Under the pieces are notes generated by a model. The model searched no databases. It was not told where the DNA came from and worked only from the letters and a program-made list of their open reading frames with translations. 61,589 nucleotides of DNA from Clostridium sp. (lineage in GTDB: Bacteria > Bacillota > Clostridia > Lachnospirales > Lachnospiraceae). Positions 22,558 through 46,790 of the stretch are shown one piece after another (within the stretch, counting starts at the first letter, position 1; each line of letters starts with the position of its first letter). The translations under genes were made by a program, and so were the position numbers. Where the stretch lies: NCBI GenBank assembly GCA_023664385.1, contig JAMPFU010000016.1, forward strand, positions 1 to 61,589, read 5' to 3'.

Positions 22558-23301
22558 ATGCTGGAATTAAACCATATTACAAAGAAATACAAGGATAAAA
22601 CGGCACTGGACGACGTTTCCATTACGCTTGACTGCGGTATTTATGGGCTGCTTGGACCAAACGGTGCGGGAAAATCCACATTGATGAACATTATTACAGG
22701 AAACATCAAGCCTACGGAGGGAAATGTATTGTGGGACGGAACTGATATTTCCAAGCTGGGTGTGCAGTTCCGCAGTCTGATAGGCTATGCACCCCAACAG
22801 CAGGGGCTTTACAATAGCTTTTCAGGCAGACGTTTCCTGGCGTACATGGCGGCACTGAAGGGAATTTCCAAAAAGGACGTGAAGTGTGAGCTGGAGCGTG
22901 TGCTGTCTTATGTGAATATGCAGGACATGGCAGACAGGGCGATAGGCGGATATTCGGGAGGAATGAAGCAGCGGATTTTGATTGCACAGGCGATTTTAGG
23001 AAATCCAAAACTGATTGTGCTGGACGAGCCTACGGCAGGACTTGACCCTAAGGAGCGGGTCCGTGTCAGGGAGCAGATACAGGCACTTGCAGGGGATAAA
23101 ATTATTCTCGTTTCCACCCATGTCGTATCGGACATTGCACCTATAGCCAAGGAAATATTGCTTATCCGCAGCGGCAGCATCGTTGACAGGGACACGGTGG
23201 AGGCACTTTGCCACAAATATGGCGAAAGCCAAAATCTTGAGGAAGTGTATATGCATGTGTTTAAGGAGGAGGGATGTTATGCTTCGGTTGATTCCATTTG
23301 A
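22558..23301 (+). CDS. ABC transporter ATP-binding protein
   Basis: A 247-residue ABC ATPase. Walker A GPNGAGKS(T) near residues 35-43, Q-loop 'GYAPQQQ', signature YSGGMKQR, Walker B 'LIVLDEPTAG' and the switch His in 'VSTHVVSD' are complete. It is most like ABC-2/CcmA-type subunits. The ribosome site TAAGGAGG precedes the ATG. Its last 23 bases overlap the permease gene, so the two form one transporter. Substrate unknown; association with a two-component system suggests peptide or antibiotic export or sensing. Confidence 0.95.
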   Translation: MLELNHITKKYKDKTALDDVSITLDCGIYGLLGPNGAGKSTLMNIITGNIKPTEGNVLWDGTDISKLGVQFRSLIGYAPQQQGLYNSFSGRRFLAYMAALKGISKKDVKCELERVLSYVNMQDMADRAIGGYSGGMKQRILIAQAILGNPKLIVLDEPTAGLDPKERVRVREQIQALAGDKIILVSTHVVSDIAPIAKEILLIRSGSIVDRDTVEALCHKYGESQNLEEVYMHVFKEEGCYASVDSI

Positions 23302-25558: not shown

Positions 25559-25624
25559 GGGGAGAAAAACCGTATATGGGTCGCCTAAAAAATCCTCTTT
25601 GCCAGATAGTTCTTGATTTTTATT

Positions 25625-25709
25625 TTTGAAATACTAGTTGTGTAATAAAAAGGCTGAGGGTATAATTAAATTGGAAAATACCTCTGGGGAGTTGTTTTTC
25701 TGTTTTGAA
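25625..25709 (+). repeat. Promoter-bearing 85-bp repeat, copy A
   Basis: This block is about 80% identical over the first 60 bases to 47959-48041. Both copies start with TTTGAAATA, end with CTGTTTTGAA and hold a promoter: here TTGTGT (25638-25643) and TATAAT (25661-25666) with a 17-base spacer. It lies just upstream of the RecQ-like gene and probably drives it. Confidence 0.75.
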
Positions 25710-25741
25710 TACAGTGTATCGTTAATAGGGGGGATAAAACA

Positions 25742-27808
25742 ATGAGAGATTTATTATCGGAATTGAGAGAATGCTATGGACAAGATGCTAAATTTAGAGA
25801 CGGACAGGAAGAAGCCATAAATAGTGTGCTTGATGGAAAAAGAACCTTGGTTGTACAAAAGACCGGATGGGGCAAAAGTTTAGTTTATTTTTTGGCAACA
25901 AAAATTATTAGAAGGGAAAGTAATAAAATAACGCTGATTATAAGCCCGTTATTAGCATTAATGAATAATCAGATAGAATCAGCAAGTAAACTGGGAATGA
26001 AGGTAAAAACCTTAAATTCAGAAAATACGGAAGACTGGGATTTGATTATTGAAGAAATAAATGAAAACGATGTTGATGCGTTAATTATTTCACCTGAGAG
26101 ACTGGCGAATGATGATTTTAAAAAGATACTTACAGACAAATTGACTGTAAATATAGGATTATTTGTTGTAGATGAGGCACATTGTATTTCTGATTGGGGA
26201 CATGATTTCAGACCAGATTATAGACGTATCATTGATATTGTAAACTTGTTGCCACCGAATATTCCGGTTTTGGCTACAACGGCAACAGCTAATAATAGGG
26301 TTGTGAACGATATTAAGGCACAGCTTGGAAATGATATCATAATCAGCCGTGGAGATTTAATTAGAAAATCATTAGCTATCCAAGTGATAAAACTCGCCTC
26401 AAAAGAGGAACGTTTGGCATGGTTATCAAATAATCTCAAAGATATTCCCGGAACGGGTATTATTTACTGTTTAACAGTTAATGATTGCAAGTTGGTTGAG
26501 AAGTGGTTAAAGGAGAATGAATATGCGTGTGAAAGCTATTATGCGGCGGTTGATAAAGAGAGAAAAATGGAAATCATAGATAAATTTATGAAAAATCAAA
26601 TCAAAGTGTTGGTTGCAACTGTGGCTTTTGGCATGGGATTTGATAAGAAAGATATATCTTTTGTAATTCATTTTCAAAAACCTGCTAATATTGTGGCTTA
26701 TTATCAACAAATAGGCAGAGCTGGTCGTGCTATTGATAAATCATATGCCATATTGTTTTGCGGAAGTGAGGACGATGAGATAAGTAATTATTTTATTGAT
26801 TCAGCATTTCCGACTGAAAAGGCAATGGATGCGGTCATTCATCTGCTATCGGAAAACCAAGGACTTAAAATGGCAGATTTTGAAAAAAACTTGAACATGA
26901 AACGTGCTGGAATTGAGAAGTGTATTAAATATCTTCTGGTAAACGGCGATATTTATAAAGATGGTTCTCAATATTACAAGACGTTAAAGCCATGGGAGCC
27001 AGATTTGGAGAAAAGCGAAGAGATTACGGCGATACGCAAAAATGAATTGAAACAGATGAATGAATTTGTGGATATATCTGATTGCTACATGAAATACATT
27101 GCGAATGCACTGGATGATAGTAAAGCTGAACCATGTGGATGTTGTGCAAATTGCAGGGGACAAAATCTTTTTGCGGTTGAACCGCTTATGGATGATGTTA
27201 CAAGGGCACAGTTATTTATTAAGAATGATTTTAATGTTATAGAACCGAGAAAGAAATGGCCTGCAACTATCAAAATTTCAGATAAAAATACAATATTATC
27301 GGAACAATTATGTGAGCAAGGGCGGGTATTGAGCAATTACGGAGATGCCGGTTGGGGAAAACATGTAGCAGACTGTAAATATAAAATGGGTGTTTTTGAT
27401 GAGCAGCTAGTTGATGCATCTGTTGAATTGCTTAATGCGTTTGTTGTCGAAAACGAAATAGAATGGGTTACGAGTATTCCATCGTTAAGACGACCAAAAT
27501 TAGTGAGGGATTTTGCAATCAGGATTTCTGAGAAGCTTGGACTTCCGTATGTTGATTCACTTATCAAAAAAGATAATAGTCAATGTCAAAAGGAATTGCA
27601 CACAAGTTATCTTCAGTATAAAAATGCAAATGATACATTTGATGTATTAAGCGAAAAAATATTAGGTGAAAATGTGTTATTGATAGATGATATGGTAGAT
27701 TCAAGATGGACTTTTGCTGTATGTGGGTATAAATTAAGAAGTAATGGATGTGGAAAAGTATATCCATTTGCACTGGCAAATACAGCAGGTAGAAATGAAG
27801 GTGAATAA
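25742..27808 (+). CDS. RecQ-like DNA helicase fused to a phosphoribosyltransferase-like domain
   Basis: A 688-residue SF2 helicase. Motif I is QKTGWGKS (~39-46), motif II VVDEAHCISDWGHDF (~140-154), motif III ATTATA, and motifs IV-VI include GIIYCLT, VATVAFGMGFDK and QQIGRAGR. A RecQ-type zinc site follows (Cys in CGCCANC, ~463-469, with an earlier Cys in SDCYMKY). The C-terminal ~170 residues are unlike classic RecQ and hold a PRPP-binding-type loop, VLLIDDMVDSRWT (~645-657), as in type I phosphoribosyltransferases such as ComF. The DprA-like gene starts two bases after its stop. The combination recalls competence-derived defence or toxin-antitoxin modules such as ShosTA. The gene is AT-rich relative to the left flank. 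Confidence 0.88.
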   Translation: MRDLLSELRECYGQDAKFRDGQEEAINSVLDGKRTLVVQKTGWGKSLVYFLATKIIRRESNKITLIISPLLALMNNQIESASKLGMKVKTLNSENTEDWDLIIEEINENDVDALIISPERLANDDFKKILTDKLTVNIGLFVVDEAHCISDWGHDFRPDYRRIIDIVNLLPPNIPVLATTATANNRVVNDIKAQLGNDIIISRGDLIRKSLAIQVIKLASKEERLAWLSNNLKDIPGTGIIYCLTVNDCKLVEKWLKENEYACESYYAAVDKERKMEIIDKFMKNQIKVLVATVAFGMGFDKKDISFVIHFQKPANIVAYYQQIGRAGRAIDKSYAILFCGSEDDEISNYFIDSAFPTEKAMDAVIHLLSENQGLKMADFEKNLNMKRAGIEKCIKYLLVNGDIYKDGSQYYKTLKPWEPDLEKSEEITAIRKNELKQMNEFVDISDCYMKYIANALDDSKAEPCGCCANCRGQNLFAVEPLMDDVTRAQLFIKNDFNVIEPRKKWPATIKISDKNTILSEQLCEQGRVLSNYGDAGWGKHVADCKYKMGVFDEQLVDASVELLNAFVVENEIEWVTSIPSLRRPKLVRDFAIRISEKLGLPYVDSLIKKDNSQCQKELHTSYLQYKNANDTFDVLSEKILGENVLLIDDMVDSRWTFAVCGYKLRSNGCGKVYPFALANTAGRNEGE

Positions 27809-27810
27809 TT

Positions 27811-29007
27811 ATGACTTATTCTGAAAATGCAATGAGCGTCATACTTTTATGTTCTTATTTAGGAATAGAAAAAAAAGATTTGTTGAAGCCATTTTCTTTG
27901 GGGGAGTGGAATTTATTTTTGGATGAGATTATAAAAATAAAAGAAGAACCATCAATTTTATTTTCAAATGATGGCAGTTGGAAGAAAAAATTGCATTATC
28001 CGGAGGAACAGTTAAAACGGATTAGTGACTTGATTTCAAGAGGAGCAAGTGTGGCACTTGAGTTGGATAGTTTAGAAAGAAAGGGAATCAAAGTAGTAAC
28101 ATTGCTTGATGATGATTATCCGATTCTTTTAAGGCGGAAGCTAAAGAAAAAGGCACCACCATTATTATTTTATGCAGGTAACTTGGAGCTTGCAAAGAAA
28201 ATCGGTATAGCTGTTGTAGGCTCAAGAAATGCTGATGATGAATGTATAAAGTTTACCCAAAAACTGGTTGAAAAGGCGTCAAAGGAAAAGCTGGTTGTGT
28301 ACTCTGGCGGGGCTAGAGGGGTAGATAACATTTCAGAAATAACTGCATTAAATTCAGGAAGTGCTGTGGTTTCGTTCGTGGCAGATTCCTTATTAAATAA
28401 AATAAAGAAACAGGAAACCATAAAAAATATTATTGATGGAAGGCTGCTGTTGCTTTCTGATGTTAAACCTGATGCGGGGTTTTCGGCTGCAAGAGCCATG
28501 AATAGGAATAAATATATATATACTTCAGCATATGGTGCCTTTGTTATAGAATCCGATTACAATAAAGGTGGAACATGGAATGGAGCCATGGAGTCAATTA
28601 GAAATGATTATACAAGGACATTAGTATGGAACAATAAAAAGTATGCTGGAAATCAAAAGTTAATTGAAAATGGAGGCATTGCATTTGAAATTACAGAGGA
28701 AAGTATTTATTCTGTGATAACTAAGAAACAGGATAATTTTGAGCAATTTGATTTGTTTAAAAGCTATGAAAGCGAAGATGATGCGATAGGAACTGGCAAG
28801 CTAGAAGATACTACGAAACAAAGAGATAAAAATGACATTTATGATATGGTAAAAATGCTTTTGGTTGAATATGTCGGAGTTGGAAGAAGATTGGAAGAGA
28901 TATCAAGCAATTTCAATATTGTGGAAAACCAAATGTCCATATGGCTGGATTCGTTGTGCCATGATAAGTTAGTAGTATGTGAAAAGGGAGTATATAAAAA
29001 ATTATAA
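27811..29007 (+). CDS. DprA-like DNA-processing protein, partner of RecQ-PRTase
   Basis: A 398-residue protein with a DprA/LOG-type Rossmann domain (~100-300): 'LLFYAGNLELAKKIGIAVVGSRN', 'VVYSGGARGVDN' and 'AFVIESDYNKGGTWNGA'. In DprA the second motif is GGArGiD, so the nucleotide/ssDNA-binding core is preserved. The N-terminal ~90 residues are helical and the C-terminal ~60 residues form a winged-helix-like end ('RLEEISSNFNIVENQMSIWLDSL'). It is immediately downstream of the RecQ-PRTase gene (two-base gap), with an AAGGTG site, so it is translated with it. It is probably not the housekeeping DprA, because it lies in an accessory island and its central region diverges. Confidence 0.85.
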   Translation: MTYSENAMSVILLCSYLGIEKKDLLKPFSLGEWNLFLDEIIKIKEEPSILFSNDGSWKKKLHYPEEQLKRISDLISRGASVALELDSLERKGIKVVTLLDDDYPILLRRKLKKKAPPLLFYAGNLELAKKIGIAVVGSRNADDECIKFTQKLVEKASKEKLVVYSGGARGVDNISEITALNSGSAVVSFVADSLLNKIKKQETIKNIIDGRLLLLSDVKPDAGFSAARAMNRNKYIYTSAYGAFVIESDYNKGGTWNGAMESIRNDYTRTLVWNNKKYAGNQKLIENGGIAFEITEESIYSVITKKQDNFEQFDLFKSYESEDDAIGTGKLEDTTKQRDKNDIYDMVKMLLVEYVGVGRRLEEISSNFNIVENQMSIWLDSLCHDKLVVCEKGVYKKL

Positions 29008-29044
29008 ATTAGTTATCACCAGTGATATTACAAAACACTATAAC

Positions 29045-29445
29045 ATTAAAAAATTTGACGTTTTTAACTGCGTGGTGAAGCATGTAGGTAAGACATTTTC
29101 GGTGAATGCCATTGTAAAGTTTTTGAAAAACGAAGGACGCCCTTTTTTCGGTGTGTAGGGTGTCTATAATTATTTGGAATGGTTAGAGACGGCTATGAGG
29201 TTTAAATCAGAAAGAACGAAACAAAAGGAATTGATTTTGTTGCAGTACGAAGCGATTAGCGTATTTATGTACAGGTATGTCATGATCTGCAAGCGGAATC
29301 TGACCGTGATGCCGCAAATCTGCTTGAGATTATGGACCATGACTCTAAGTGTGTGGTAACGCTTGACGAGTTTGCAGGGGAAATATTAATGGTGTTAAGA
29401 GTGTGCATTTGGCGTTTTTTGTTGAGGGGGGGAGTATTAGGAAGG
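29045..29445 (+). pseudogene. Remnant of AAA ATPase with DUF4143 domain
   Basis: Three fragments in different frames match parts of a DUF4143-type ATPase: 'CVVKHVGKTFSVNAIVKFL' with 'KNEGR' (from 29051), 'VYNYLEWLETA' (~29159-29192), and 'LLEIMDHDSKCVVTLDEFA' followed by the frame-shifted 'GNINGVKSVHLAFF'. Stops and frame changes separate them and the ATPase half is missing. This fills the 523-base gap after the DprA-like gene. Confidence 0.7.
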
Positions 29446-29530
29446 TAATTTATTGTTGCTATTTGACAGATTGAGGTTTGCTAGATAACTATAATTTGGA
29501 AACATGAAATTGTGAAAGGTGGTATAAATT

Positions 29531-30301
29531 TTGTTTAGTAAAAAAACAGGTGAAAGACTAGAAAGTTATGTTCAATATGTTTATCAGAGATTGTTAAATT
29601 TAAATGATTATAAGAATGTGATTGTTTCTCGGAATGTTTCTATAAAAGGGATAAGTGGAACAATGAATGAGTTTGATATTTATTATCAAATTTTTCATCT
29701 GAATTTGGAATGCAGAGTTGTAATAGAGTGCAAGGATTGGAAAACTGCAGTGCCAGTTGGAGAAGTAAGAGATTTTGCTTGTAAAATCGATGATATAGGG
29801 GTGGGAAATGTTATAGGAGTTATGATTTCAAAAAATGGTTATCAAAAAGGTGCAGACACTTTTGCAAAATCTAAAGGAATAAAATTAATGAAGGAGGATG
29901 AGTTGCCAAAAATTCCAGATTTGTTAGCGGGATTTGTTGAAAAATTTTTTTTACCGGATGAAAAATGTAAAGGAGAACCTTTTTGGACTATAATGGAGTG
30001 TGAAAATGAAAGAGTTACAGGGTCATATATGTCAATATCAACAAACTCTAAAGAGCGACCTACTATTCCGCTGTTTTATTCAAAAAAAATTGCAGAGTTT
30101 TTTTTGGACAGAAGGGGTGATAAAAAATATTATTGCATAAGAGGAGTAACTCAATATCAGTTAAAAGGGTTATTAGAGATGCAGTCTTTAGGAAATCCAC
30201 AATTTGCTGTTTTTTATATGCCTATTTTAGATAATTCAAAAAATTTGGATTACAGAATTTGTGAGTTTAAAGATATAAAAAAATGGTATATAATGGATTA
30301 A
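29531..30301 (+). CDS. Mrr-like restriction endonuclease-fold protein
   Basis: A 256-residue protein whose first ~130 residues match the Mrr-type PD-(D/E)xK nuclease fold: 'GISGTMNEFDIYY' supplies the Asp, 'RVVIECKDW' the E-x-K pair, and 'GNVIGVMISKNGYQKGAD' plus 'KSKGIKLM' are the later strands typical of the family. The C-terminal ~110 residues are unrecognised and may recognise DNA or a partner. The start is TTG at 29531 with AGGTGG nine bases upstream. No methyltransferase is nearby, so a modification-dependent (type IV-like) or stand-alone defence nuclease is more plausible than a classical R-M enzyme. Confidence 0.8.
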   Translation: MFSKKTGERLESYVQYVYQRLLNLNDYKNVIVSRNVSIKGISGTMNEFDIYYQIFHLNLECRVVIECKDWKTAVPVGEVRDFACKIDDIGVGNVIGVMISKNGYQKGADTFAKSKGIKLMKEDELPKIPDLLAGFVEKFFLPDEKCKGEPFWTIMECENERVTGSYMSISTNSKERPTIPLFYSKKIAEFFLDRRGDKKYYCIRGVTQYQLKGLLEMQSLGNPQFAVFYMPILDNSKNLDYRICEFKDIKKWYIMD

Positions 30302-30514
30302 GTATTTGTGATGTTTATGTAAAATAAGTCGGAATGTATTGAAGGATGGTGGATTAGAAGAGAATATATTAGTAATAGAAAGATATTATGAAGGTGCACT
30401 GGTATTCAGCACGGTATTTCCTAATTAATGAGATATAATAAATAAGGGAGAGCAGGACATTTGTAAAACGTAAAAAGTACTAAAAACTGATGAGGTTATC
30501 ATGTTACATGGCTA

Positions 30515-30682
30515 GTGCTTAACAGTACGGATTTCGGTCGAGCCAATCTTGAAAGAAAGTGTGCATTATTGGATTCCTTGGAGAACGATATTCTAGAGAA
30601 AGGTTTTGAGGAGCAGATGTACTTTGACTTGATTTACTTTGGACGGCAACGCCGACCGTTTGGGGAGATGTGGGAATTTTGA
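30515..30682 (+). other. Short ORF, likely fragment of a mobile-element gene
   Basis: In the 593-base gap between the nuclease and Fic genes, an open frame starting at GTG 30515 encodes 55 residues, including 'LERKCALLDSLENDILEKG' and 'MYFDLIYFGRQRRPFGEMW'. It looks like a conserved protein fragment, but I cannot name the family and see no ribosome site. A second short stretch (~30715-30785) reads 'EYEVWVKVPVKSGYGKENCG' in another frame. The gap is therefore probably decayed element sequence. Confidence 0.35.
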
Positions 30683-30826
30683 AATTTTTAAAGACTGTGG
30701 GTCGATTATGAGAGACAGGAGTATGAAGTGTGGGTTAAAGTGCCGGTAAAGTCAGGCTATGGAAAAGAAAATTGTGGGTTGTGGCAGGGGATAAGTGAAT
30801 ATAATTGCAGATTCCATAAAAAACAG

Positions 30827-30876
30827 TTGCTATATAGGGAACATTTGGGGTATAATACACACAAAAAAGTTCCCTA
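30827..30876 (+). promoter_or_regulatory. Fic gene promoter bracketed by an inverted repeat
   Basis: TTGCTA (30827-30832) and TATAAT (30851-30856) are 18 bases apart. A perfect eight-base inverted repeat, TAGGGAAC (30835-30842) and GTTCCCTA (30869-30876), encloses the -10 box. This could be an operator or a structural site covering the start of transcription. Confidence 0.55.
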
Positions 30877-30894
30877 AAGAAAGAAGGACGTGTT

Positions 30895-31833
30895 GTGGGT
30901 GCAAATTATTCAGAAATTCAGGAATTGTTACAGCAAAGGGCAGATTATCAGGCAAGGTTAAATCTGATACCCTATGATGGCAATCCTGAGATAAAAGAGA
31001 AAAATGGTTCTAAATATTTATATATCCGGAAACGAGTAGCGGGAAAACTGAAATCCACGTATGTGGACGTATATACGGATGCGTTGTATCAACTGCTCCT
31101 TCGCAATGCAAAGGAAGCAAGGGAATTAAATAAAGCAATTCGGAAGATTACGAGAGAGCTGACTGCACTTGGATATGAGGATAAGGAGCTTTCGGCAAGG
31201 GTGTTGCAGAACCTTGATTTTGCAAGGGTAAACATGAAAACGAATATCTATGACCAGGCAGTTTTGGAGGGTGTGGCTACTTCATTTCCGCAGACAGAGG
31301 ATATTATTGAGAATGGAAAGGTAAATGGTGTTTCAGCCACAGACATGCAAAAGATATTAAATTTAAAACATGCATGGGAATTCATACTGGATCGGGATGT
31401 AATTCAAAGTGATACAAACTATTATATGCTGTGCCATATTGCAAAGCTGGTAAATGAAGGCTTTTTCTATGACGGGGGTCGTATCAGAGGCATTCCCGTG
31501 ACAATCGGAGGAAGCACTTACGTTCCGCCGATTCCGATAGAATCCGTTGTTGTGGAACGGATTGATAAAATCCGTTCGCAGGAAAAGGAAGCGGTAGATA
31601 TAGCGATTGAACTGTGTCTGTATTGCATGAAGACGCAGGTGTTTACGGACGGAAACAAAAGGGCATCGGTAATTTTTGCAAACCACTATCTGATTGCACA
31701 TGGAGAAGGATTTATTGTTATTCCCGAAAAGGATGTACCGGAATTTAAAAAGCTTCTGGTAGATTTTTATGAAGGTAAAGAGATAGAAGTAATCAGCAAT
31801 TTTATGCGGGAACGCTGCTGGAAAAGGTTTTAG
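30895..31833 (+). CDS. Fic-family protein lacking the catalytic histidine
   Basis: A 312-residue protein. The C-terminal ~170 residues carry a Fic fold: 'YYMLCHIAKLVNEG', then the core loop QVFTDGNKR where the active consensus is HPFxDGNGR. Gln replaces the catalytic His and Lys the second Gly-loop residue, so ordinary AMPylation is unlikely; the anion-binding DGN is retained. The middle region 'LEGVATSFPQTEDII' resembles the N-terminal Fic helix. The first ~100 residues are helical and include a basic segment (KYLYIRKRVAGKLKST). The start is GTG 30895 after AAGAAGG. Many mobile-element-borne clostridial Fic proteins share this layout. It is followed at once by a degraded TOPRIM gene. Confidence 0.85.
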   Translation: MGANYSEIQELLQQRADYQARLNLIPYDGNPEIKEKNGSKYLYIRKRVAGKLKSTYVDVYTDALYQLLLRNAKEARELNKAIRKITRELTALGYEDKELSARVLQNLDFARVNMKTNIYDQAVLEGVATSFPQTEDIIENGKVNGVSATDMQKILNLKHAWEFILDRDVIQSDTNYYMLCHIAKLVNEGFFYDGGRIRGIPVTIGGSTYVPPIPIESVVVERIDKIRSQEKEAVDIAIELCLYCMKTQVFTDGNKRASVIFANHYLIAHGEGFIVIPEKDVPEFKKLLVDFYEGKEIEVISNFMRERCWKRF

Positions 31834-32162
31834 GCACACGGCTATGCGGTGGCATGTTCCGTATCCGACAGAGTTTTATTTCACTCCCTGACAGGGCATA
31901 AGCATCTGCAAAAGGTATATTTATGTCTGGACCATGATGAGGCAGGGCAAAAAGTAAATAAGCGGATCGCAGACCGATTAACCGAATAGGGAGCAGATAT
32001 GAAATCCTCGTACCAATCCATAAGGACTGGAACGAGGATTTATTATCTTTGAGAGACATAAATAAAAAATTTGAAAAAACAGTCGGAAGGAGGAGAGAAG
32101 GCAGAGAAATAGACAGCAGATGGGCAGACAGAAACTACAATCAGGCAGGATGGGAAACGTAG
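31834..32162 (+). pseudogene. TOPRIM (DUF3991-type) mobile-element primase remnant
   Basis: Frame one reads 'AHGYAVACSVSDRVLF' and 'VYLCLDHDEAGQKVNKRIA' to a stop at ~31987; another frame then continues 'YEILVPIHKDWNEDLLSLRD' to a stop at 32162. The LDHDEAG and HKDWNEDL segments are typical of the TOPRIM half of DUF3991 proteins of integrative conjugative elements. The N-terminal half is missing and the frame is broken. Confidence 0.75.
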
Positions 32163-32169
32163 GAAGCAG

Positions 32170-32385
32170 CATGACAGAATTGCAGCCTTGATTTATATTT
32201 ACCTTGCCGATCACACAGACAAGGAAAGTGCTGGCTGGCAATGCCAACCATAGCAAGGAAACTGAAACTGTTTGAGGTCACTGTTAGGTGGCAATCAGAG
32301 ACTTGAGGAAAACTGAACTGACAAGAACGAACAGCGGTATCGGATAGCGGAGGTAAGAACAGCCTTTTATATGTGTTGCCGTGAT
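32170..32385 (+). pseudogene. Helix-turn-helix protein remnant of an integrative element
   Basis: Successive frames read 'HDRIAALIYIYLADHTDKES' with 'AGWQCQP', then 'TIARKLKLFEVTVRWQSET', then 'AIRDLRKTELTRTN'. Together they resemble the small HTH protein usually found just after the TOPRIM/DUF3991 gene in Firmicute integrative elements. Several stops and frame changes show it is dead. Confidence 0.65.
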
Positions 32386-32400
32386 AAAACAAACATCTGC

Positions 32401-32431
32401 CACCAAGGGAGAATTCTGCCCTTTTGGTGGT
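32401..32431. other. Hairpin in decayed mobile-element segment
   Basis: CCACCAAGGG pairs with CCCTTTTGGTGG apart from small bulges, around an AGAATTCTG loop. No T run follows. The surrounding sequence (32379-32490) has a faint, more diverged echo at 33325-33440, suggesting an old duplication. Confidence 0.4.
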
Positions 32432-32544
32432 AGGTGGGACCTGTCATGATGACGGGAAAATGTGAAGGATACAATGGAAAAGAAGGTACGGCAGAGGGGA
32501 AAATATATGGTGGAAGGCTACCAAAGTGGTACGATGCACTTAGT

Positions 32545-32591
32545 GCTAGTACAATGAGCCTAGTGATTTTTTTAATCTAATAATTTATAAT
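32545..32591 (+). promoter_or_regulatory. Shared 27-nt block plus TATAAT, copy 1
   Basis: A 27-base block beginning GCTAGTACAATGAGC and ending GTGATTTTT (32545-32571) matches 39399-39425 at 24 of 27 positions. In both places a TATAAT begins exactly 41 bases after the block's first base (here 32586-32591). It precedes the gene for the four-helix membrane protein. Confidence 0.6.
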
Positions 32592-32701
32592 AGAAATGAA
32601 ATAGACTTGGAGGGTTTAAAAAATATCTGAAATATATTTATACTGTAATATCCTAATTAGTGTTTGATGTATGATAGAAATAGTACTAATGAAGGGGGAT
32701 T

Positions 32702-33283
32702 ATGTTTGTGGGTTCAAAAGAAATTAAAGAATATGAAATGCTACGCCAAGAAATTCTGCAATATATGGAAGAATATCAATCTATTAGAAATATGATGTAT
32801 ATAGTTACATTTACAATTTTGGTTATTTGTTTAACTGGTGATAATGTGCAAAAATATACATTTCTAATACCGCTTGTTGTAATATTACCTTCATATTTAG
32901 CTTATTTTAGTTATAAGGAAGGGGTTATTATAGATGCTACATATTTAATGGTATTTTATGAAACAAATCCAGAAATTCCGTTTAAATGGGAAACAAGGAT
33001 TCGAAAATTACGAGAAGATAAGATGATAAAAACTAAAACAGGTTCACACAAATTATCATATATAATTTGTGCATTGTTATGTGTAATTCTATATCTTGCT
33101 CATATTGATACTGGAAATTATATAGATATTGTGGTGGGATTAATAAGTTGCATTGTATGTTTTTGTTTTTTTGTTGAAAACAATAATATAGATGATGCAG
33201 TTTTTATTAATAAATGGAAAGAAATAAAACAAATGGAAGAAAGAAATACATCTAATAACTTAATGCGTCAAAAAGATGATTAG
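32702..33283 (+). CDS. Hypothetical membrane protein with two helix pairs
   Basis: A 193-residue protein. A short N-terminal helix (1-30) is followed by two membrane helices (~31-47 and ~52-70), a cytoplasmic stretch with 'WETRIRKLREDKM', two more helices (~115-131 and ~138-155) and a charged tail. No family is recognised; the arrangement resembles small SLATT-like or accessory membrane proteins found in defence islands. GAAGGGGG lies upstream of the ATG. It has a promoter block shared with the DUF6615-like nuclease gene 6.9 kb away. Confidence 0.65.
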   Translation: MFVGSKEIKEYEMLRQEILQYMEEYQSIRNMMYIVTFTILVICLTGDNVQKYTFLIPLVVILPSYLAYFSYKEGVIIDATYLMVFYETNPEIPFKWETRIRKLREDKMIKTKTGSHKLSYIICALLCVILYLAHIDTGNYIDIVVGLISCIVCFCFFVENNNIDDAVFINKWKEIKQMEERNTSNNLMRQKDD

Positions 33284-33847
33284 TATAGGAAATTATATAA
33301 TGTTATTGGTATATATTAATGCTCTGATACGATAAAAACAACTATTTGTTACCGAAGGGGAAAATATCTTTTTCTATTGATAGATGGTATCAGTTATGAT
33401 ATAGAATAATGTGAAATATACAATAAAAGAGCATATATGACAGAAAAAATTTGATTGGAAATAGATACAGGGTGAGATTATGAGCTGGTGCTTTTTTGGG
33501 AGATATGGAGAATGGCTTAATATAGTAGATTAATTGTTATTAAATAATTTGTTGTTATTTAATAGGTGGATTTTGAACTTTATCCAATAATACCGTTCAA
33601 AGTTTAATAAATATAAGGATTAAAGGATTGTTAAGATGAAATTTTCATGGGATTTCTTATTATGCATGTGATACAATTAGGGAAGTTATGTATGTTTGTG
33701 GAAAAAAGTATTAATTCATGAAGTGGATTAAGTTTATTTTTAATGTTATAAAAGTGAGTGATTCGATTATAAAGTTGATTGATAATTGTATTAATATTTA
33801 AGGAAAATACATAAGTAAAAAGTTAAAAATAGAGATGGAGGAAGAAG
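33284..33847. other. AT-rich gap without recognisable gene
   Basis: 564 bases of very AT-rich sequence. I see no coding potential on either strand beyond short chance frames. A section near 33325-33440 weakly resembles 32379-32490 in the decayed mobile-element segment. Confidence 0.5.
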
Positions 33848-35818
33848 ATGCGGTTATCAAATATAAAAATTAAAAATTATCGGTTACTTATTGATGCAGA
33901 TTTAAAAGTAGATGATAGCATTACATTAATTGTTGGACGTAATAATACAGCTAAAACATCTTGTGCTGAATTAATAGAAAAGGTGTTGAAAAGCAAAGCG
34001 TTGTCATATGATGATTATCCTTTATCGAAACGCAAGTATGCGTATGTCTTGTTGGCTCAATTTATGCGTAATAAATTATCATTTGGAAGTCTATGTAAAA
34101 AATTTCCTGTAACAGCTATTGATTTTTATGTTGATTATTCATTAGATGACCCGAACATGAATTTAGGAGCACTTTCTCCGTTCATTATTGATGTAGATGT
34201 GGATAGTGTTATGGCAATGATTCATGTAGAATATAGTATTAAAATCAGTGAAGAATCTTTAAGAAATATGTTCGAAACATGTTTTTTTGAAAATAATAAT
34301 TTTGTATGTAAACCGGAAGATGTTCGTGATGTGTCCATTGCTAATTTCTCAAAGATATTTGGAATGAATATATATGCGAGTAATCCTCAAAATGAGACCG
34401 ATAGACAATTAAAAACACAAAAGGAATTAATTGATTTATTTCCATTTTATTCGATACCAGCAGAAAGAACGCTAGGAGAAAATGGAGACCATAACAGTAA
34501 TTCATTAGGAACATTAATTTCTAGTTATTTTGGTGTTGATGTTGAGAATATAGACCCCAAAGTGGCAGAAGAAGTAAAAATACTTCGAAAGACAGTAGAA
34601 GAAGCAAATGTTAATCTTCAAAGGAAGAGCAATGAACTTTTAGGAACAATTGTAAATAAAGCTGTCGGATTTGGATATCCAAACGCAGAAGAACTTCAAT
34701 TGGGAGTGAATACCAGGTTACAGATCGATGATCAGATTAAGGACAGAACAGAACTTACATATAAATCCACGGTAATGGGGGAATCGCTTCCAAGTTCTCA
34801 TAATGGTTTAGGGTACAAAAATCTTATAAAAATTGAATTTATGCTAGCTGATTTTGCAGAAAAAATAAAACAGGGGAATCTTGCATGCATTCCGCTATTG
34901 TTCATTGAGGAGCCAGAGTCACACATGCATCCACAAATGCAGCATACATTTGCTGGGTATTTAGAAAAATTTTTAGGAGAGATTTCTGATGTCCATATTC
35001 AAACATTTTTGACGTCTCATTCGGCACATATTGCAAATACTATTGAGTTTTCTAAAATTCGCTATGCACAGAAGACCATGAAGGGGGTTGTTTACAAAAA
35101 TTTAAATGCATTTGCCAAAGAAAATGGGGCACACATGGATTTTATAAAGAAATATCTTACGCTTAGTAGATGTGATTTGTTCTTTGCGGATAAGGTGATT
35201 TTTGTAGAAGGGGCATCAGAGAGGTTGCTTCTTCCAGATATGATAGAAAAATGCAATAGTGAGGGTTTGTTTGATACGAAAAGATATAAATTGCCAGCAC
35301 AATACTATGCACTTATTGAAATTGGTGGAGCTTATGCGAACAAATTTATTCCATTTATAAACTTTTTGGGTATTCCTTGTTTGATATTGACAGATATAGA
35401 TTCTATGGAGGATGGGCGGACAAAAGCAATAGTGAGTAAGGGAAAAACTACTTCGAATACAACATTAAAGTGGTGGATGCGGAAAGTAAAAGGATTACCA
35501 GAAACTGATACGAGTAAAATAGATTTGTCTGAGATAATCGCACTGACAGATATTCAAAAGACAATTGATAAATGTCATATAGAATTTCAGGCAAAAGAAC
35601 ACGGTTTATGTGGTAGGTCCTTAGAGGAAGCCATTAAGAATGTTAATCGAAACTATTATGGACTAAAGGGTTCTATTACAGAAGGTGATTTGGAATTTAC
35701 GGATAAGAGTAAAACGGATTTTGCACTAAATTTGGTGTGCAATAATCCAAATTATGTAATTCCTAAATATATTAAAGATGGATTAGTGTGGCTTAACGAA
35801 CAGAATGTTTTAGTATAG
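33848..35818 (+). CDS. OLD-family ATPase/TOPRIM nuclease, Gabija GajA-like
   Basis: A 656-residue protein of the OLD family. The SMC-like ATPase head has Walker A GRNNTAKT (30-37) and, after a long insertion with coiled-coil character, 'LLFIEEPESHMHPQMQ' (~348-363) for the signature/Walker B region and a switch His in 'TSHSAHIANT'. The C-terminal TOPRIM nuclease shows 'VIFVEGASERLLLPDM' (Glu ~453) and 'ILTDIDS' (DxD ~513). These are the metal-binding residues of OLD nucleases, so DNA cleavage is expected. A UvrD-like helicase starts 11 bases later, the gene pair that defines Gabija-type anti-phage defence. GajA of described systems is somewhat shorter, so this is a divergent or extended form. 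Confidence 0.9.
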   Translation: MRLSNIKIKNYRLLIDADLKVDDSITLIVGRNNTAKTSCAELIEKVLKSKALSYDDYPLSKRKYAYVLLAQFMRNKLSFGSLCKKFPVTAIDFYVDYSLDDPNMNLGALSPFIIDVDVDSVMAMIHVEYSIKISEESLRNMFETCFFENNNFVCKPEDVRDVSIANFSKIFGMNIYASNPQNETDRQLKTQKELIDLFPFYSIPAERTLGENGDHNSNSLGTLISSYFGVDVENIDPKVAEEVKILRKTVEEANVNLQRKSNELLGTIVNKAVGFGYPNAEELQLGVNTRLQIDDQIKDRTELTYKSTVMGESLPSSHNGLGYKNLIKIEFMLADFAEKIKQGNLACIPLLFIEEPESHMHPQMQHTFAGYLEKFLGEISDVHIQTFLTSHSAHIANTIEFSKIRYAQKTMKGVVYKNLNAFAKENGAHMDFIKKYLTLSRCDLFFADKVIFVEGASERLLLPDMIEKCNSEGLFDTKRYKLPAQYYALIEIGGAYANKFIPFINFLGIPCLILTDIDSMEDGRTKAIVSKGKTTSNTTLKWWMRKVKGLPETDTSKIDLSEIIALTDIQKTIDKCHIEFQAKEHGLCGRSLEEAIKNVNRNYYGLKGSITEGDLEFTDKSKTDFALNLVCNNPNYVIPKYIKDGLVWLNEQNVLV

Positions 35819-35829
35819 GGGGTATATTT

Positions 35830-37575
35830 GTGATGGAGGCAGATGAGAGAACAAATTATCAAATGGCCAAAGAAGAAGCAGATAAAATTGATGCACAGAT
35901 TATTGCTATACTTCAGCAAGGGAAGAATTTTCGTGTCGAAGCGGGTGCAGGTTCTGGAAAAACATATTCGTTAAATAAAGTTATTGAATGGATTCAAGAT
36001 AATAAATGGAATGAATATCGTCGTAAAAATCAAAATGTTGTGTGCATTACTTATACGAACGCAGCAGTAAATGTAATTGCTGAACGGCTTGCAAATGATT
36101 CCTTTATATTGCCATCTACTATACATTCTTTTGCATGGAATGCAATTAAGCAATATCAGAGTTTTTTGCTTAGGATTATCAAAGAAAATGAGAATTTACA
36201 GCCGCGAGAGGGAGACTTTTCTGCGATTACACAAGTGCAATATACTTTGGGACATAGATATAAACAAAACGGAATACTGTATCTTTTTCATGATGATGTT
36301 ATAACTTTGTTTTCAGCGTTGCTTGATAATGTTAAGTTTCGTCGAATGTTTAGTGATAGGTTTCCTCTGATTTTAATAGATGAATATCAAGATTCATTTA
36401 GACCTATTATGGATAAATTTATAGAATATTTTATTGATAAAGATGTTGGACCGCAGTTTGGTTTTTTCGGAGATGCGTGGCAGACTATATACCAATCTAA
36501 TAAAGCCTGTGGATTGATAGAACATGAGAATATCACAGAAATTAAAAAAGTGTCAAATTTTAGGTCGGCATCAAGGATAGTAGATTTGTTAAATGATATA
36601 CGACCACAATTACCACAAATTTCAGCCATTGATGATTTTGAAGGAGAAGTATTGGTTATCACATGTGATGACTATATTGGCGAGCGTCGGACAGATAGAA
36701 ATTTTAAAGGAGATCTGCCCGCAAATGTATTAAAAAGTCGACTTACGAATTTAACGGAGCATATAAAAAAGAACCATATATCTGATAAAGAAAGCTTAAA
36801 AATTTTGATGATCACGCACAAGGTACTGGCATTTCAGCAGGGTTATGAAAAATTGCTAGATATATTGGATAATGGTTTGCGGGATAAAGAAGATATCTTT
36901 TTGCAGTTTTTTATGGAGATGGTTGAGCCAATCTTTAAAGCACTTGAAACATCTGATATGCAATTGCTTTTTGATACACTTAAAGTTAAAAGATATCCTA
37001 TAACAAAAAAATATGAAAAGGTAAAGTGGAGGATGCTTCAAGAGCAACTTACGCATGTCCGTGCTAAAAAAACTATTGATGTGTTGAAAGTAGTGATAGA
37101 ATCGGAACTTATTCCAATTCCGCAGAATATTTCTGCCTATTATGGTATGTATTATTCTGTGCCAGACTTGTGTTATTCTAATACAACCATAAAAGAATTT
37201 CTAGATTTGGAATATGAACAGTTTTTATCAGTAATTAATTTTTTGTATCCTGAAGCGGAGTTTTCAACAGAACATGGTGTTAAAGGTGAAGAGTATGATA
37301 ATGTGGTTTTCGTAATAAGTAAGGGATGGAATCAATATCAATTTGAAACTTATGCACCAATGATAAAGAATGGTTATGATTTAAATAAAGAGGCATCTTA
37401 TGTAAGAAATCGTAATCTTTTTTATGTTTGTTGTTCTCGTCCTAAAAAGAGATTGTTCTTTTTTGTTTCTGTAGAAATTAATGATACATTTCGTGATTTT
37501 TTAAGCGGACTTGTGGGTGAGGATAATATTTTTACCTATGAAGAATATATTGGACGAGATTGGAGGGAAGGATAA
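35830..37575 (+). CDS. UvrD-like SF1 helicase, Gabija GajB-like
   Basis: A 581-residue SF1 helicase. Walker A is AGAGSGKT (~38-45), motif Ia 'VVCITYTNAAV', motif II 'LILIDEYQDS' (~178-187), motif III 'FFGDAWQTIY', and the C-terminal RecA fold has 'EHGVKGEEYDNVVFV' (motif V) and 'FYVCCSRPKKRL' (motif VI). It is partner of the OLD nuclease upstream; in Gabija the helicase and nuclease form a complex. The start is GTG 35830 or ATG 35833; AGGGGG spans the junction and does not decide. It is longer than typical GajB. A 139-base gap with a TATAA-like box separates it from the next pair, which may or may not be part of the same system. Confidence 0.9.
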   Translation: MMEADERTNYQMAKEEADKIDAQIIAILQQGKNFRVEAGAGSGKTYSLNKVIEWIQDNKWNEYRRKNQNVVCITYTNAAVNVIAERLANDSFILPSTIHSFAWNAIKQYQSFLLRIIKENENLQPREGDFSAITQVQYTLGHRYKQNGILYLFHDDVITLFSALLDNVKFRRMFSDRFPLILIDEYQDSFRPIMDKFIEYFIDKDVGPQFGFFGDAWQTIYQSNKACGLIEHENITEIKKVSNFRSASRIVDLLNDIRPQLPQISAIDDFEGEVLVITCDDYIGERRTDRNFKGDLPANVLKSRLTNLTEHIKKNHISDKESLKILMITHKVLAFQQGYEKLLDILDNGLRDKEDIFLQFFMEMVEPIFKALETSDMQLLFDTLKVKRYPITKKYEKVKWRMLQEQLTHVRAKKTIDVLKVVIESELIPIPQNISAYYGMYYSVPDLCYSNTTIKEFLDLEYEQFLSVINFLYPEAEFSTEHGVKGEEYDNVVFVISKGWNQYQFETYAPMIKNGYDLNKEASYVRNRNLFYVCCSRPKKRLFFFVSVEINDTFRDFLSGLVGEDNIFTYEEYIGRDWREG

Positions 37576-37714
37576 ATGACTTATTTAAGATAAGACGAAT
37601 TTATAGAAGTAATCTAATAATAGTTACAAGAACAGATTGTAATTATAAAAGTGCAAACTTTGTGCAGATAAATAAGGCAAATGAAAAATAGTAGAAAAGG
37701 AGAAGATAATTATT

Positions 37715-38059
37715 ATGATTATTTTTGAACTTGATAAAGAAGATGTAGAATATGCTGATCGTATCAGTGAATTGGCAGATATGTCAATTGTAATTGAAAA
37801 TCCGAAGTCGTTTAGTAGTGATCTTAATACTGTGATTCAAATAGGAGTAACATTGGCACCTTATGCAATTTCAGGAGTCACGTTGATTATTATTGAATTG
37901 ATAAGAAATAGGAAAAAAATTAAAATAAAAGTTTCAGATAGAAGTTTTGAAGTTGAAGGTGAACAAGAAAAGGTAATAGAGGTTGCAAAGGAACTTATTG
38001 AACAACAACAAGAGGAAGAAGCAAAAAAAATATTAAATGATTTATTATCGAGGAAATAA
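37715..38059 (+). CDS. Small single-TM protein resembling effector-associated component EACC1
   Basis: A 114-residue protein. An N-terminal ~40-residue soluble part precedes one hydrophobic helix (~47-68, 'VTLAPYAISGVTLIIIEL'), then basic residues and a compact 'KIKIKVSDRSFEVEGEQ' strand pair plus helix. This order (short domain, membrane or hydrophobic helix, basic stretch, beta-alpha tail) is like EACC1, a small constant component coupled to proteases and other effectors in NTP-dependent conflict systems. The resemblance is by layout, not proven homology. An AAAGGAG site precedes the ATG. The metalloprotease gene starts seven bases after its stop. Confidence 0.7.
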   Translation: MIIFELDKEDVEYADRISELADMSIVIENPKSFSSDLNTVIQIGVTLAPYAISGVTLIIIELIRNRKKIKIKVSDRSFEVEGEQEKVIEVAKELIEQQQEEEAKKILNDLLSRK

Positions 38060-38066
38060 TACGATT

Positions 38067-39224
38067 ATGAATATTGATGAAAAAGTTATAGAGTTTGTTA
38101 AAAATTCAAGATATAGTATTTATGTTGATGAAATATCAGAAGTTGAACAAGCAAGACTAAAGAATTTATTTGATAATTGCGTATCCGTGCTTATAAAAGA
38201 TTATGCCGAAGAATTTATGCCTACTTTTATTATTTGTGATACTTATAATAAGTACAGCACGATTCTTCCAGTAAGACTTCATCAAAATAATTATAAATAT
38301 TATCTTTTGTATGATTGCCATTTGATTCAAATTAATCGCTTACTTGATGCACTTTATTTGGATAACAATGATGCATCGCATGATATTTGGAAATTTTCAT
38401 ATGAGTTATTTGCGGAAGATGCACTGTTAGAAGAAAATGAAATATTAGTGTCATATTATGGTTTGAACAAGGTGGCATTAGGACAATTTGAAGTGAATAT
38501 TGAAGAACAAGCGGATTTGGATTTTATAATTGATATTCAAGAGCGTTATATTATTGGACATGAATTGGGACATTGGATTTACAAAGTAGCAGAGAATAGA
38601 AATATTGAAAGCATATTTAATGTTAGTTTTGACGCAGATTGGGTTCGTTTTTTAGAGAATATTAAAGCACTTCTATGTGATTTATATGACAAGTATGAAA
38701 AAATATTTCAATCAAATGAGTATATTGAAATGATACATGAACAGAAAAACCTCGTCAATGAAAATAATGGTATATTGGAAGAATGTTTTGCTGATGCTGT
38801 TGCATATGCCATGACATTTTCGTATGTTGGACTTAATTATCCTAATGATTTAAATCAAAAAATTCTTGCAGGAAAGGCTTTGTTGTTGGAAATGATGAAT
38901 CTTCAATTATTAGCCATGCAGCATATGTATGTATCTGAAAAGTCATTTGAATCAGCTACCTCAATAAGGGTAGGATTTCTGCGTAATTATATAAGTCTTT
39001 ATTTTGAGGATAATGAAATATTGTTTGATAAAATGTTAGAAGAAACTGTAATTCGTTATGAGGAACGAATTACAAATATTATGTTGGAATGTTTTTCAGA
39101 ATTAGAAGATAGAGGGGACAATATATTTGATGCTTTGATTGATACGGATGGTTTTTTAAATTTAGATAAAGTTATAGGCTTAAAAGATGTATATCGAAAC
39201 AGCGATTTGTATGATTTCAAATAA
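38067..39224 (+). CDS. Zinc metalloprotease (HELGH) likely effector
   Basis: A 385-residue soluble protein with a zincin motif: HELGH at ~165-169 in 'YIIGHELGHWIYKVAE', and a downstream glutamate ligand in 'EECFADAVAYAM' (~242-253). The EExxAD pattern is typical of gluzincins including phage-element and defence-associated peptidases. The rest is helical and unrecognised. The start at 38067 is preferred because GAGGAAA lies upstream and it avoids overlap; an ATG at 38037 is in frame but inside the previous gene. Its tight pairing with the small membrane protein and position after a Gabija-like pair suggest a regulated cell-damaging or phage-targeting protease. Confidence 0.8.
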   Translation: MNIDEKVIEFVKNSRYSIYVDEISEVEQARLKNLFDNCVSVLIKDYAEEFMPTFIICDTYNKYSTILPVRLHQNNYKYYLLYDCHLIQINRLLDALYLDNNDASHDIWKFSYELFAEDALLEENEILVSYYGLNKVALGQFEVNIEEQADLDFIIDIQERYIIGHELGHWIYKVAENRNIESIFNVSFDADWVRFLENIKALLCDLYDKYEKIFQSNEYIEMIHEQKNLVNENNGILEECFADAVAYAMTFSYVGLNYPNDLNQKILAGKALLLEMMNLQLLAMQHMYVSEKSFESATSIRVGFLRNYISLYFEDNEILFDKMLEETVIRYEERITNIMLECFSELEDRGDNIFDALIDTDGFLNLDKVIGLKDVYRNSDLYDFK

Positions 39225-39398
39225 AAAAGTTTTTATTTATTATATTGTTATTCTTAAGAATGGAAAACTTTGGATTACTTTGGGTGTTATTAATAAGAGT
39301 CTTTAGATTAAAGTAAAGAAGTTTTGTATGATTGGCTAAAAGAATGATAAATAAAAGTAAATCGGAGAATATAAAAAGGTAGGACAAAAGTACCAATG

Positions 39399-39445
39399 GC
39401 TAGGACAATGAGCATGGTGATTTTTGGATGGATGAGGGGTATAAT
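39399..39445 (+). promoter_or_regulatory. Shared 27-nt block plus TATAAT, copy 2
   Basis: Second copy of the block at 32545-32571, here 39399-39425 with TATAAT at 39440-39445, again 41 bases from the block start. It is in the 324-base gap before the DUF6615-like gene, whose start is about 100 bases downstream; nothing else is recognised in the gap. Confidence 0.6.
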
Positions 39446-39548
39446 CGAAATATGGTAGGTGGTTTTGTTTGTATTAGGAAACTATAGGAGTTTATGTAAT
39501 TAGGTTATTAATTTGGAAAACATATATTATTTTTAGGAGAAATATAAG

Positions 39549-40379
39549 ATGCTGTTTCATAACTGTTCTGAATATATATACAATTGGATTAGAAGACAAA
39601 ATCATGTAAAGGAAGAATCATTAACAGATTGGCTTTTGTATGAAATATCCCAACAATGCCCTTTGGTTTATTATAAGGCTTTTTCAAGGCACGAGGAGGC
39701 ACAAAATGGAAGCGATTGGGAGTGGTGGATTTTAACCAATGATAGTAAAAATCTACATAAGTTTAATGCGTATAGGTTTGTGGTACAGGCAAAAAAATTA
39801 TCATCGAATAATCAAGATAATTATCATATTATTAATTATACAAATCGTCATGGAGCACAAATTGATTTGTTATTGGATTTTGCAAAAGATAGAAATGCGT
39901 TGCCTTTATATATGTATTATTCAATAGGAATTCCGGATATATTAAAACAAATAGAAAATGTAACGTACCTGAGCGAATCAACAATTCGTTGGTGTGAAAG
40001 TTGTACTAATGGCTGTTTTTTAACCTTGGCTTCTGATGTGTATGATTTAGTTTATAGGACTGCCAGAAAAAAGATATCGGATTGTCAATTACTTAATCAT
40101 TCATTTAAACTATCATTATTAGATAAAGGATTTGATTATTGTGGAGTTGAAATTGATAAGATTCTGACTGATTTTAATAATAGATTAATTCGTGAAAAAA
40201 ATATAGGGAATATATATTTTAATAATGAAATACGTGGAATTAAGCATGATGAAAAGACTATACCGAGGTATTTGAGTGTTTTTATTGAACATAGACAAGA
40301 TGAATTGAATTGGTTTGAGGACGAAATGAGGATAACCGATATTGGAGGCTTAGGTATGATAGATGTTAGAAAGAAATAA
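39549..40379 (+). CDS. DUF6615-like predicted PD-(D/E)xK nuclease
   Basis: A 276-residue protein. Residues ~22-85 show 'EESLTDWLLYEIS', 'QNGSDWEWWIL' and 'RFVVQAKKL', i.e. Glu, then D-x-E, then Q-x-K, consistent with a restriction-endonuclease fold active site. This is the pattern of DUF6615 proteins. The rest is alpha/beta, with a Cys-containing 'WCESCTNGCF' stretch that may bind metal. An AGGAG site precedes the ATG. It is a single gene with its own promoter and terminator at the right edge of the AT-rich island, and likely a stand-alone defence nuclease. Confidence 0.7.
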   Translation: MLFHNCSEYIYNWIRRQNHVKEESLTDWLLYEISQQCPLVYYKAFSRHEEAQNGSDWEWWILTNDSKNLHKFNAYRFVVQAKKLSSNNQDNYHIINYTNRHGAQIDLLLDFAKDRNALPLYMYYSIGIPDILKQIENVTYLSESTIRWCESCTNGCFLTLASDVYDLVYRTARKKISDCQLLNHSFKLSLLDKGFDYCGVEIDKILTDFNNRLIREKNIGNIYFNNEIRGIKHDEKTIPRYLSVFIEHRQDELNWFEDEMRITDIGGLGMIDVRKK

Positions 40380-40423
40380 TAAATTGAATAAATCAGAGTA
40401 TTTTTGAAATACTGGTACAAACT

Positions 40424-40459
40424 TCACCCCGACTGGTACGATGTTCGGGGTGATTTTTT
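40424..40459 (+). terminator. Terminator after DUF6615-like gene
   Basis: TCACCCCGA (40424-40432) pairs perfectly with TCGGGGTGA (40445-40453), followed by six T. Confidence 0.92.
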
Positions 40460-41037
40460 ATGAAAAACAATCTATAATATACATCAGAAGGATTTTGAGA
40501 AACAGCATCATCTTTCTGAAAAAATAAATAGCAATTACAGATACTGCGGTTATGTATGCCGCAGCGTATAAGTGGTGAGAAAGCTATACGGAGTAAAATT
40601 CCGGTACATCTGTCAGACAGGCAATCAGTTGTAAGGTGCGAGGAGAGTTGATGAACCCAGCGGTGAAGATGGAGCACACAGGCGGAGTTTAATGTGGCGG
40701 AAGGATAATAATCCATACGGGTGACCAATCGGGTTCCCCAATCCTCGAAAATCGGCATCAGAGGAGATAGTGCCCTAAAGGGTGCGTCGTGAACGCTTCA
40801 GGCGGCTCGTCTGTAATTCCCATGTGTACAGGGCGATGAGGGATAAAATGTACACGTTGTAGTCGTAGTAAGGGCAGTGGTGAAATTAGTCAATATTTTG
40901 CTGTGCGAATGACTGCCCAAATAAAAGGAAAGGATGAAAATACTTAGGACCCCAAAGCATATAGCCATTGGCATATAATAAAGCAATGCACAGATATGTG
41001 CTTTACATAGATAACAAATTAATAAGGAGGAGATCAA
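40460..41037. other. Non-coding gap, base composition unlike the island
   Basis: 578 bases with no credible gene. The central part (~40600-40900) is richer in G and C than the preceding island and holds no convincing frame on either strand. It could contain decayed element sequence or a structured leader for the surface protein gene. I recognise no known RNA family. Confidence 0.4.
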
Positions 41038-44085: not shown

Positions 44086-44117
44086 AAACGGCACAGGAAA
44101 AATGCGGGTATGTCACC

Positions 44118-45572: not shown

Positions 45573-45578
45573 TTGCTT

Positions 45579-45669
45579 ATCAGGTAACCACCTGATATCT
45601 TTTAAAGTATATGGTTTTATTTATAGCCATTATAAAAGACCGTTTTCTTTCGGGAAAGCGGTCGTTTTA
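45579..45669 (+). terminator. Two consecutive hairpins ending the surface protein gene
   Basis: ATCAGGT-AACC-ACCTGAT (45579-45596) is a perfect seven-base stem followed by ATCTTTT. A second, GACCGTTTTC with GAAAGCGGTC (45638-45663), is followed by GTTTTATT. Confidence 0.75.
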
Positions 45670-45682
45670 TTATGATTATAAT

Positions 45683-45710: not shown

Positions 45711-45722
45711 TATACTGATTGC

Positions 45723-46773: not shown

Positions 46774-46790
46774 TCCTGACTGCCTATTTT

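Follow-up and report, generated by a model that had tools for sequence, protein, structure and literature searches.

The 61,589-bp stretch analysed here (the window; contig JAMPFU010000016.1 of Clostridium sp. assembly GCA_023664385.1) carries two adjacent genes on the plus strand, with 2 bp between the stop codon of the first and the start codon of the second (Table 1). The first encodes a RecQ-like helicase with a C-terminal phosphoribosyltransferase (PRTase) domain, the second a DprA-like protein. A previous sequence-only reading had recognised these parts, had likened the pair to ShosTA and had offered it as an extended or new class of that module. Judged by its sequence, the pair is an unexceptional representative of PsyrTA (RqlH/RqlI), a toxin-antitoxin defence module that is already named and known.

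This assignment rests on matches that cover both proteins almost from end to end. The first protein matched the PADLOC PsyrT model with 899 bits (E 4e-271, residues 4-684 on profile positions 8-687 of 689), and the second the PsyrA model with 335 bits (residues 1-390 on profile positions 1-387 of 398). The features that define PsyrTA were all found: a first gene of about 690 codons that joins a RecQ-type helicase to a C-terminal PRTase, a DprA-like gene of about 400 codons directly downstream, and conserved Walker A, DEAH and acidic residues, the last in the loop for phosphoribosyl pyrophosphate (PRPP).

The helicase core of PsyrT was recovered by the Pfam models DEAD (E 6e-28), Helicase_C (2e-19) and RecQ_Zn_bind (1.3e-5), and the protein exceeded the cut-off of the RecQ family model TIGR00614 (286.7 versus 219.8 bits). 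Thus, the RecQ core with zinc site that had been read from the sequence was confirmed, as was the DprA-like gene two bases further on. We then aligned 68 full-length PsyrT proteins, namely the window copy, L007 and those of 66 of 80 related genome loci; these 66 have a complete start, at least 650 residues and first 60 residues that are not repeated. K45, D144, E145, H147, D649, D650 and W656 did not vary in any of them, and the invariance of the last three rules out a chance occurrence of the PRPP-loop motif. Going by the motif, K45 probably corresponds to K49 of RqlH, which lies outside the alignment. Promoter- and terminator-like sites showed no or hardly any excess over shuffled sequences (11 versus 18.5 and 2 versus 1.7).

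Table 1. Features of the PsyrTA pair and of the island that carries it (window coordinates; residue numbers refer to the respective protein).
Feature	Position	Strand	Evidence and conservation
PsyrT (RqlH-type), 688 aa, RecQ-like helicase with C-terminal PRTase; putative toxin/effector	25742..27808	+	PADLOC PsyrT
Walker A TGWGKS, PsyrT residues 41-46	25862..25879	+	invariant in 68/68 aligned PsyrT
DEAH box, PsyrT residues 144-147	26171..26182	+	D144, E145, H147 in 68/68; A146 in 66/68
Four-cysteine RecQ zinc-binding site, C448, C465, C468, C471	27083..27154	+	RecQ_Zn_bind; each Cys in 43-44/68
C-terminal PRTase domain, modelled region, PsyrT residues 474-688	27161..27805	+	AlphaFold2, Pribosyltran family matches, ComFC-like
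PRPP loop VLLIDDMVDSRWT, PsyrT residues 645-657	27674..27712	+	D649, D650, W656 in 68/68; D653, S654, T657 in 67/68
PsyrA (RqlI-type), 398 aa, DprA/SLOG-like; putative antitoxin/regulator	27811..29007	+	PADLOC PsyrA
DprA (DNA_processg_A) domain, PsyrA residues 88-288	28072..28674	+	Pfam PF02481, E 1.3e-35
AT-rich inserted island, 14,840 bp, pair at its start	25569..40408		empty site in same-genus genome, GC shift
Mrr-type restriction endonuclease	29531-30301		Pfam
Fic-family protein	30895-31833		Pfam
Gabija GajA (663 bits) and GajB (664 bits)	33848-37575		PADLOC
DUF6615 protein	39549-40379		Pfam

Taken from the window protein alone, the assignment of the C-terminal domain as a PRTase is weak. 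The domain reached 17.1 bits against Pribosyltran, below the cut-off of 26.3, and the full-length protein gave no Pribosyltran match at E<=0.01 in the Pfam scan. The assignment stands on the domain family: in an alignment of 56 domains, window included, 51 matched Pribosyltran at E<=0.1 (best 1e-9), and the profile of all 56 matched solved PRPP synthetases (best E 4e-6), HGPRT and PurF. The AlphaFold2 model of the domain was confident (pLDDT 93.4, pTM 0.89). Of the seven host PRTases found with PF00156, four were retrieved and three entered a comparison with the domain profile; their names, like that of the unrelated control, are our reading of their sequences. The ComFC-like protein came first (E 1.9e-9, probability 96), followed by the HPRT-like (E 2.8e-5, probability 74) and APRT-like proteins (E 0.006, probability 6), with the control, a histidine kinase, at E 0.37 (probability 0.2). 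Family matches, profile, model and host comparison together indicate that the domain is PRTase-like and, among the three host PRTases compared, nearest to ComFC. The ComF-like PRTase with a PRPP loop in the sequence-only reading is borne out, and family, profile and model give no support to its proposed counter-case, a domain without the PRTase fold.

PsyrTA takes its name from PsyrT-PsyrA of Pseudomonas syringae (Sberro et al. 2013, as cited in PMC4670107 and PMC8790059), and PMC4670107 describes PsyrT and PsyrA as orthologs of RqlH and RqlI. The window pair resembles PsyrTA in its RecQ-type helicase with a PRTase tail, its DprA-like downstream partner and protein lengths near those of the PADLOC models. 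It differs in sharing 42-44% identity with the two aligned Pseudomonas members (L072 and L082, neither from P. syringae) and in having four zinc cysteines, which most aligned proteobacterial members lack. Gene order, adjacency and domain layout are also common to the pair and to RqlH/RqlI as described from extraintestinal Escherichia coli. In contrast to the Gram-positive genomes in PMC4670107, which nearly always lack RqlI, the window copy, probably from Lachnospiraceae, has an RqlI-type partner.

The likeness to ShosTA holds, as both combine a PRTase with a DprA-family partner (PMC9122126), and in that paper such a DprA-PRTase pair encoded by P2 gave E. coli protection from T7 and from lambda. 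However, the pair as described there has no helicase, whereas the window PRTase is fused to one. The idea of a new class between ShosTA and PsyrTA could draw on the shared PRTase and DprA parts and on a weak match of PsyrA to ShosA (96 bits). But both proteins fit the PsyrTA models nearly end to end, PsyrA scores only 96 bits against ShosA versus 335 against its own model, and ShosT was not among the best 25 of the 42 PADLOC families listed for PsyrT. Given membership in PsyrTA, the new class is refuted as a claim, and we regard it as almost certainly wrong. ShosTA membership itself was rejected on the helicase fusion and the two PsyrA scores; the Dpd system was rejected as well, with DpdF models matching the helicase part at 311 bits at best, versus 899 for PsyrT. 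Moreover, the concept is already in print, since PMC5512222 (2017) describes the fusion of a PRTase with a superfamily II helicase in association with DprA, PMC4670107 gives the orthology stated above, and PMC9122126 lists shosTA, syrTA and rqlHI among the systems whose antitoxins are DprA homologues. Thus, the parts, the ShosTA likeness and the defence-type setting of the earlier interpretation stand, and its extended or new class is not needed.

The pair lies at the start of an AT-rich island with a GC content of 33.0%, versus 41.8% to its left and 42.0% to its right. A same-genus genome (G712, locus L114) contains both window flanks, positions 23160-25568 at 97.5% and 40409-46794 at 95.0% identity. 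Because these flanks are only 17 bp apart there, G712 represents the empty site for the island. No recombinase domain was detected among the 10 island proteins in the Pfam scan, which left smaller open reading frames (ORFs) aside. A search for inverted repeats gave none at the left end of the island and a single 14-nt pair just beyond its right end. With Gabija, an Mrr-type endonuclease and a Fic protein as neighbours, the AT-rich, defence-like island of the sequence-only reading was found as described, and acquisition of the module together with this defence island is part of the best explanation.

Two further island ORFs (37715-38059 and 38037-39224) matched neither Pfam nor PADLOC models at E<=0.01. 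Upstream of PsyrT, just within the left end of the island, an 85-bp stretch (25625-25709) is 81% like L114 positions 10029-10111, at a great distance from the empty site. A Clostridiales-3 RNA (RF02942, 152 bits, 40641-40860) lies shortly after the right end of the island, within sequence alignable to L114. It is followed by a surface-protein gene (41038-45572) that is present as two ORFs of 1015 and 484 aa, versus a single ORF of 1514 aa in L114, a frame break in the window.

Helicase, ComFC-like PRTase and DprA-like protein are the same kinds of parts as ComFA, ComFC and DprA, and the pair might accordingly be taken for a competence or DNA-uptake module, a fused counterpart of that trio. The DprA likeness of PsyrA and the profile comparison, in which the ComFC-like protein was nearest of the three host PRTases (E 1.9e-9; HPRT-like 2.8e-5; APRT-like 0.006; control 0.37), would favour this. 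However, the host encodes a canonical DprA elsewhere (TIGR00732, 252 bits, above the cut-off of 191), whereas PsyrA stays below that cut-off with 94 bits; the host also encodes a separate ComFC-like protein. The pair is therefore no competence locus; its helicase is RecQ-type and fused to the PRTase, and it sits in an inserted, accessory island with Gabija. PsyrA matches at E<=1e-5 occurred in 24 of 37 genus genomes, but were strong only in the own genome (G000) and in G702 (53%); the others, with 23-28% identity and at most 39 bits, look like ordinary DprA. The empty site, the presence of a strong PsyrA in two of 37 genus genomes and the separate canonical DprA led us to reject a competence locus. 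They also contradict what the earlier reading had named as its refutation, the same pair as ordinary competence locus of relatives, and support its preference for a defence-type island. A competence function thus appears very improbable to us.

To survey the gene neighbourhood, we searched the genome collection with the C-terminal part, as a query built on the window copy together with two family members. The analysis retained the 80 best of the 177 places found, and the pairing rate is accordingly no census. In 75 of these 80 loci a PsyrA-like gene followed on the strand of PsyrT, in line with the pairing that the sequence-only reading had suggested surveying, and in 65 of the 75 the spacing ranged from a 110-bp overlap to a 20-bp gap. 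Among the five loci without PsyrA, L023 and L059 have less than 200 bp and L037 has 914 bp of downstream sequence; L046 and L074 (Chloroflexi, Anaerolineae) have about 8 kb without a PsyrA match. Within the phylum, 10 of 398 genomes matched the PRTase part, fragments included, with a PsyrA-like ORF in the available stretch of nine and none in that of G662. Among 299 family genomes, PsyrT including the PRTase part was present in four at E<=1e-60, in one of them as a broken copy, and two further matches were helicase-only. None of 54 pattern matches in viral contigs proved to be a PsyrT relative, and no phage record matched; plasmid records gave seven matches.

PsyrT and PsyrA trees agreed, with a distance correlation of 0.92 that none of 2,000 permutations reached, host phylogeny being uncontrolled (65 of 72 pairs used; a separate PsyrA alignment holds 36 sequences). 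This agreement is compatible with joint inheritance and is confounded by host ancestry. In the same 65 pairs (relatives L013-L092) the zinc cysteines were nearly all-or-none (39 proteins with four, 25 with none, one with one). Going by record titles, 16 of the 25 cysteine-free copies come from Proteobacteria, or 17 if Geobacter is counted; 22 of the 25 are paired with a PsyrA of at least 390 aa.

Some relatives were incomplete. In G162, PsyrT is split into ORFs of 343 and 186 aa (L009/L012) alongside a full-length PsyrA ORF; the broken PsyrT of G662 (L095) has no PsyrA match in the stretch available. In two genomes of one genus (L099, 445-1881, minus strand; L100, 1513-3003, plus strand), a shortened PRTase ORF of 130-148 aa precedes a PsyrA of 346 aa. 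The PRTase ORF of L100 matches PsyrT positions 540-686 only, and the pair is flanked by BrxC and PglX genes in a BREX operon (family matches for L100, the same ORFs in L099). It may be either a helicase-less variant or a remnant. A PADLOC scan of neighbouring ORFs found defence families including KwaA/KwaB, SoFic, GajB and HEC-01A, each in one or two ORFs at E<=1e-30 among the best 25 of 48 families listed; it covered 119 of 335 complete ORFs from 18 of the 51 loci with at least 12 kb, had no control and carries no claim of enrichment.

Experiments on the E. coli homologues, characterised in 2015 (PMC4670107), suggest how such a pair works. In the absence of RqlI, full-length RqlH is toxic and triggers the SOS response. 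Deletion of the PRTase domain or the D663A exchange in the PRPP motif abolishes growth inhibition and SOS induction, although D663A retains a modest loss of viable counts. Helicase mutants are still harmful, and the isolated PRTase domain is non-toxic. RqlI rescues the cells; its N-terminal part with the DprA and molybdenum cofactor-binding regions is required for full rescue, the helix-turn-helix is dispensable, and co-immunoprecipitation of RqlH and RqlI is lost without the PRTase domain.

We infer from these experiments that the window pair is alike, that is, a toxin restrained by its partner; what we observed of the pair itself is its membership, anatomy, conserved motifs, frequent pairing and the presence or absence of its island. 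The near full-length PsyrT and PsyrA matches, the invariant motifs, the pairing, the agreement of the two trees, the absence of the island from G712, the homologue experiments and the Gabija neighbours support a PsyrTA (RqlHI) toxin-antitoxin-type defence unit, with a toxic PRTase held back by PsyrA, and we consider this reading likely. By analogy, the RecQ-type motor of PsyrT would move on DNA, with the ComFC-like, PRPP-using PRTase domain as the toxic part. PsyrA, probably made from the same message, would bind this domain and keep it in check. Invader DNA, probably single-stranded, could occupy or remove PsyrA; single-stranded DNA is the classical ligand of DprA. The freed PRTase, kept on DNA by the helicase, would then act, and would presumably damage DNA or the nucleotide pool and so stop the cell or the invader. 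In this way the window copy may protect against phages or plasmids.

Several points weigh against a defence unit of this kind. The PF00156 search of the host genome, which returned seven other places, did not have the PsyrT domain among them. For PsyrTA of E. coli NILS69, PMC12409345 reports no detectable protection; cells that expressed it grew more slowly, and plating of three phages improved, which the authors credit to cell density. PMC4670107 reports no detected fitness loss upon rqlHI deletion, terms RqlH/RqlI non-canonical as a toxin-antitoxin system and finds RqlH without RqlI in 99.6% of Gram-positives, a pattern from which the Bacillota-type loci here depart. In one metagenome survey (PMC10924106) PsyrTA was under-represented in defence islands; inside such islands, it was co-localised with other systems.

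A role in DNA repair or genome maintenance rather than defence, in which the partner resolves a DNA modification made by the PRTase (the Russell and Mulvey model), has to be weighed here. Uncontrolled RqlH leads to SOS induction and mutation, and in the proposal of PMC4670107 the enzyme attaches PRPP to DNA or bases, with RqlI to resolve the product. In the own genome, PsyrT is also the sole match above 40 bits to the RecQ model, and TIGR01389 (recQ) gave no match above its cut-off anywhere in it. However, occurrence is patchy for a maintenance function (four of the 299 family genomes at the threshold given above, one of them broken, and 10 of the 398 phylum genomes, fragments included), and the locus is absent from the same site in G712. 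We therefore hold a repair role to be distinctly unlikely, and retain the toxin-antitoxin-type defence unit.

With respect to the origin of this unit, PsyrTA could be the competence trio of helicase, ComFC and DprA turned guard, with a PRTase that modifies DNA or nucleotides with PRPP once PsyrA leaves for invading single-stranded DNA. The helicase would be dispensable, as the shortened PRTase and PsyrA in the BREX operon of L099/L100 suggest. This proposal is speculative, and the odds are rather against it.

The window contributes a PsyrTA copy with clear boundaries, probably from Lachnospiraceae, for which a genome of the same genus shows the empty site. Its intact-looking DprA-like partner contrasts with PMC4670107, where RqlH of Gram-positives was found almost always to lack one. 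In the literature surveyed, mostly at listing level and with few subscription papers, we met no solution to the chemistry of the PsyrT/RqlH PRTase, and the affinity to ComFC over two other host PRTases provides a lead to how this domain may use PRPP. Four points are mildly informative: a partner in a probable Lachnospiraceae context, the affinity to ComFC, a zinc site that is nearly all-or-none, and the short PRTase-PsyrA pair embedded in BREX.

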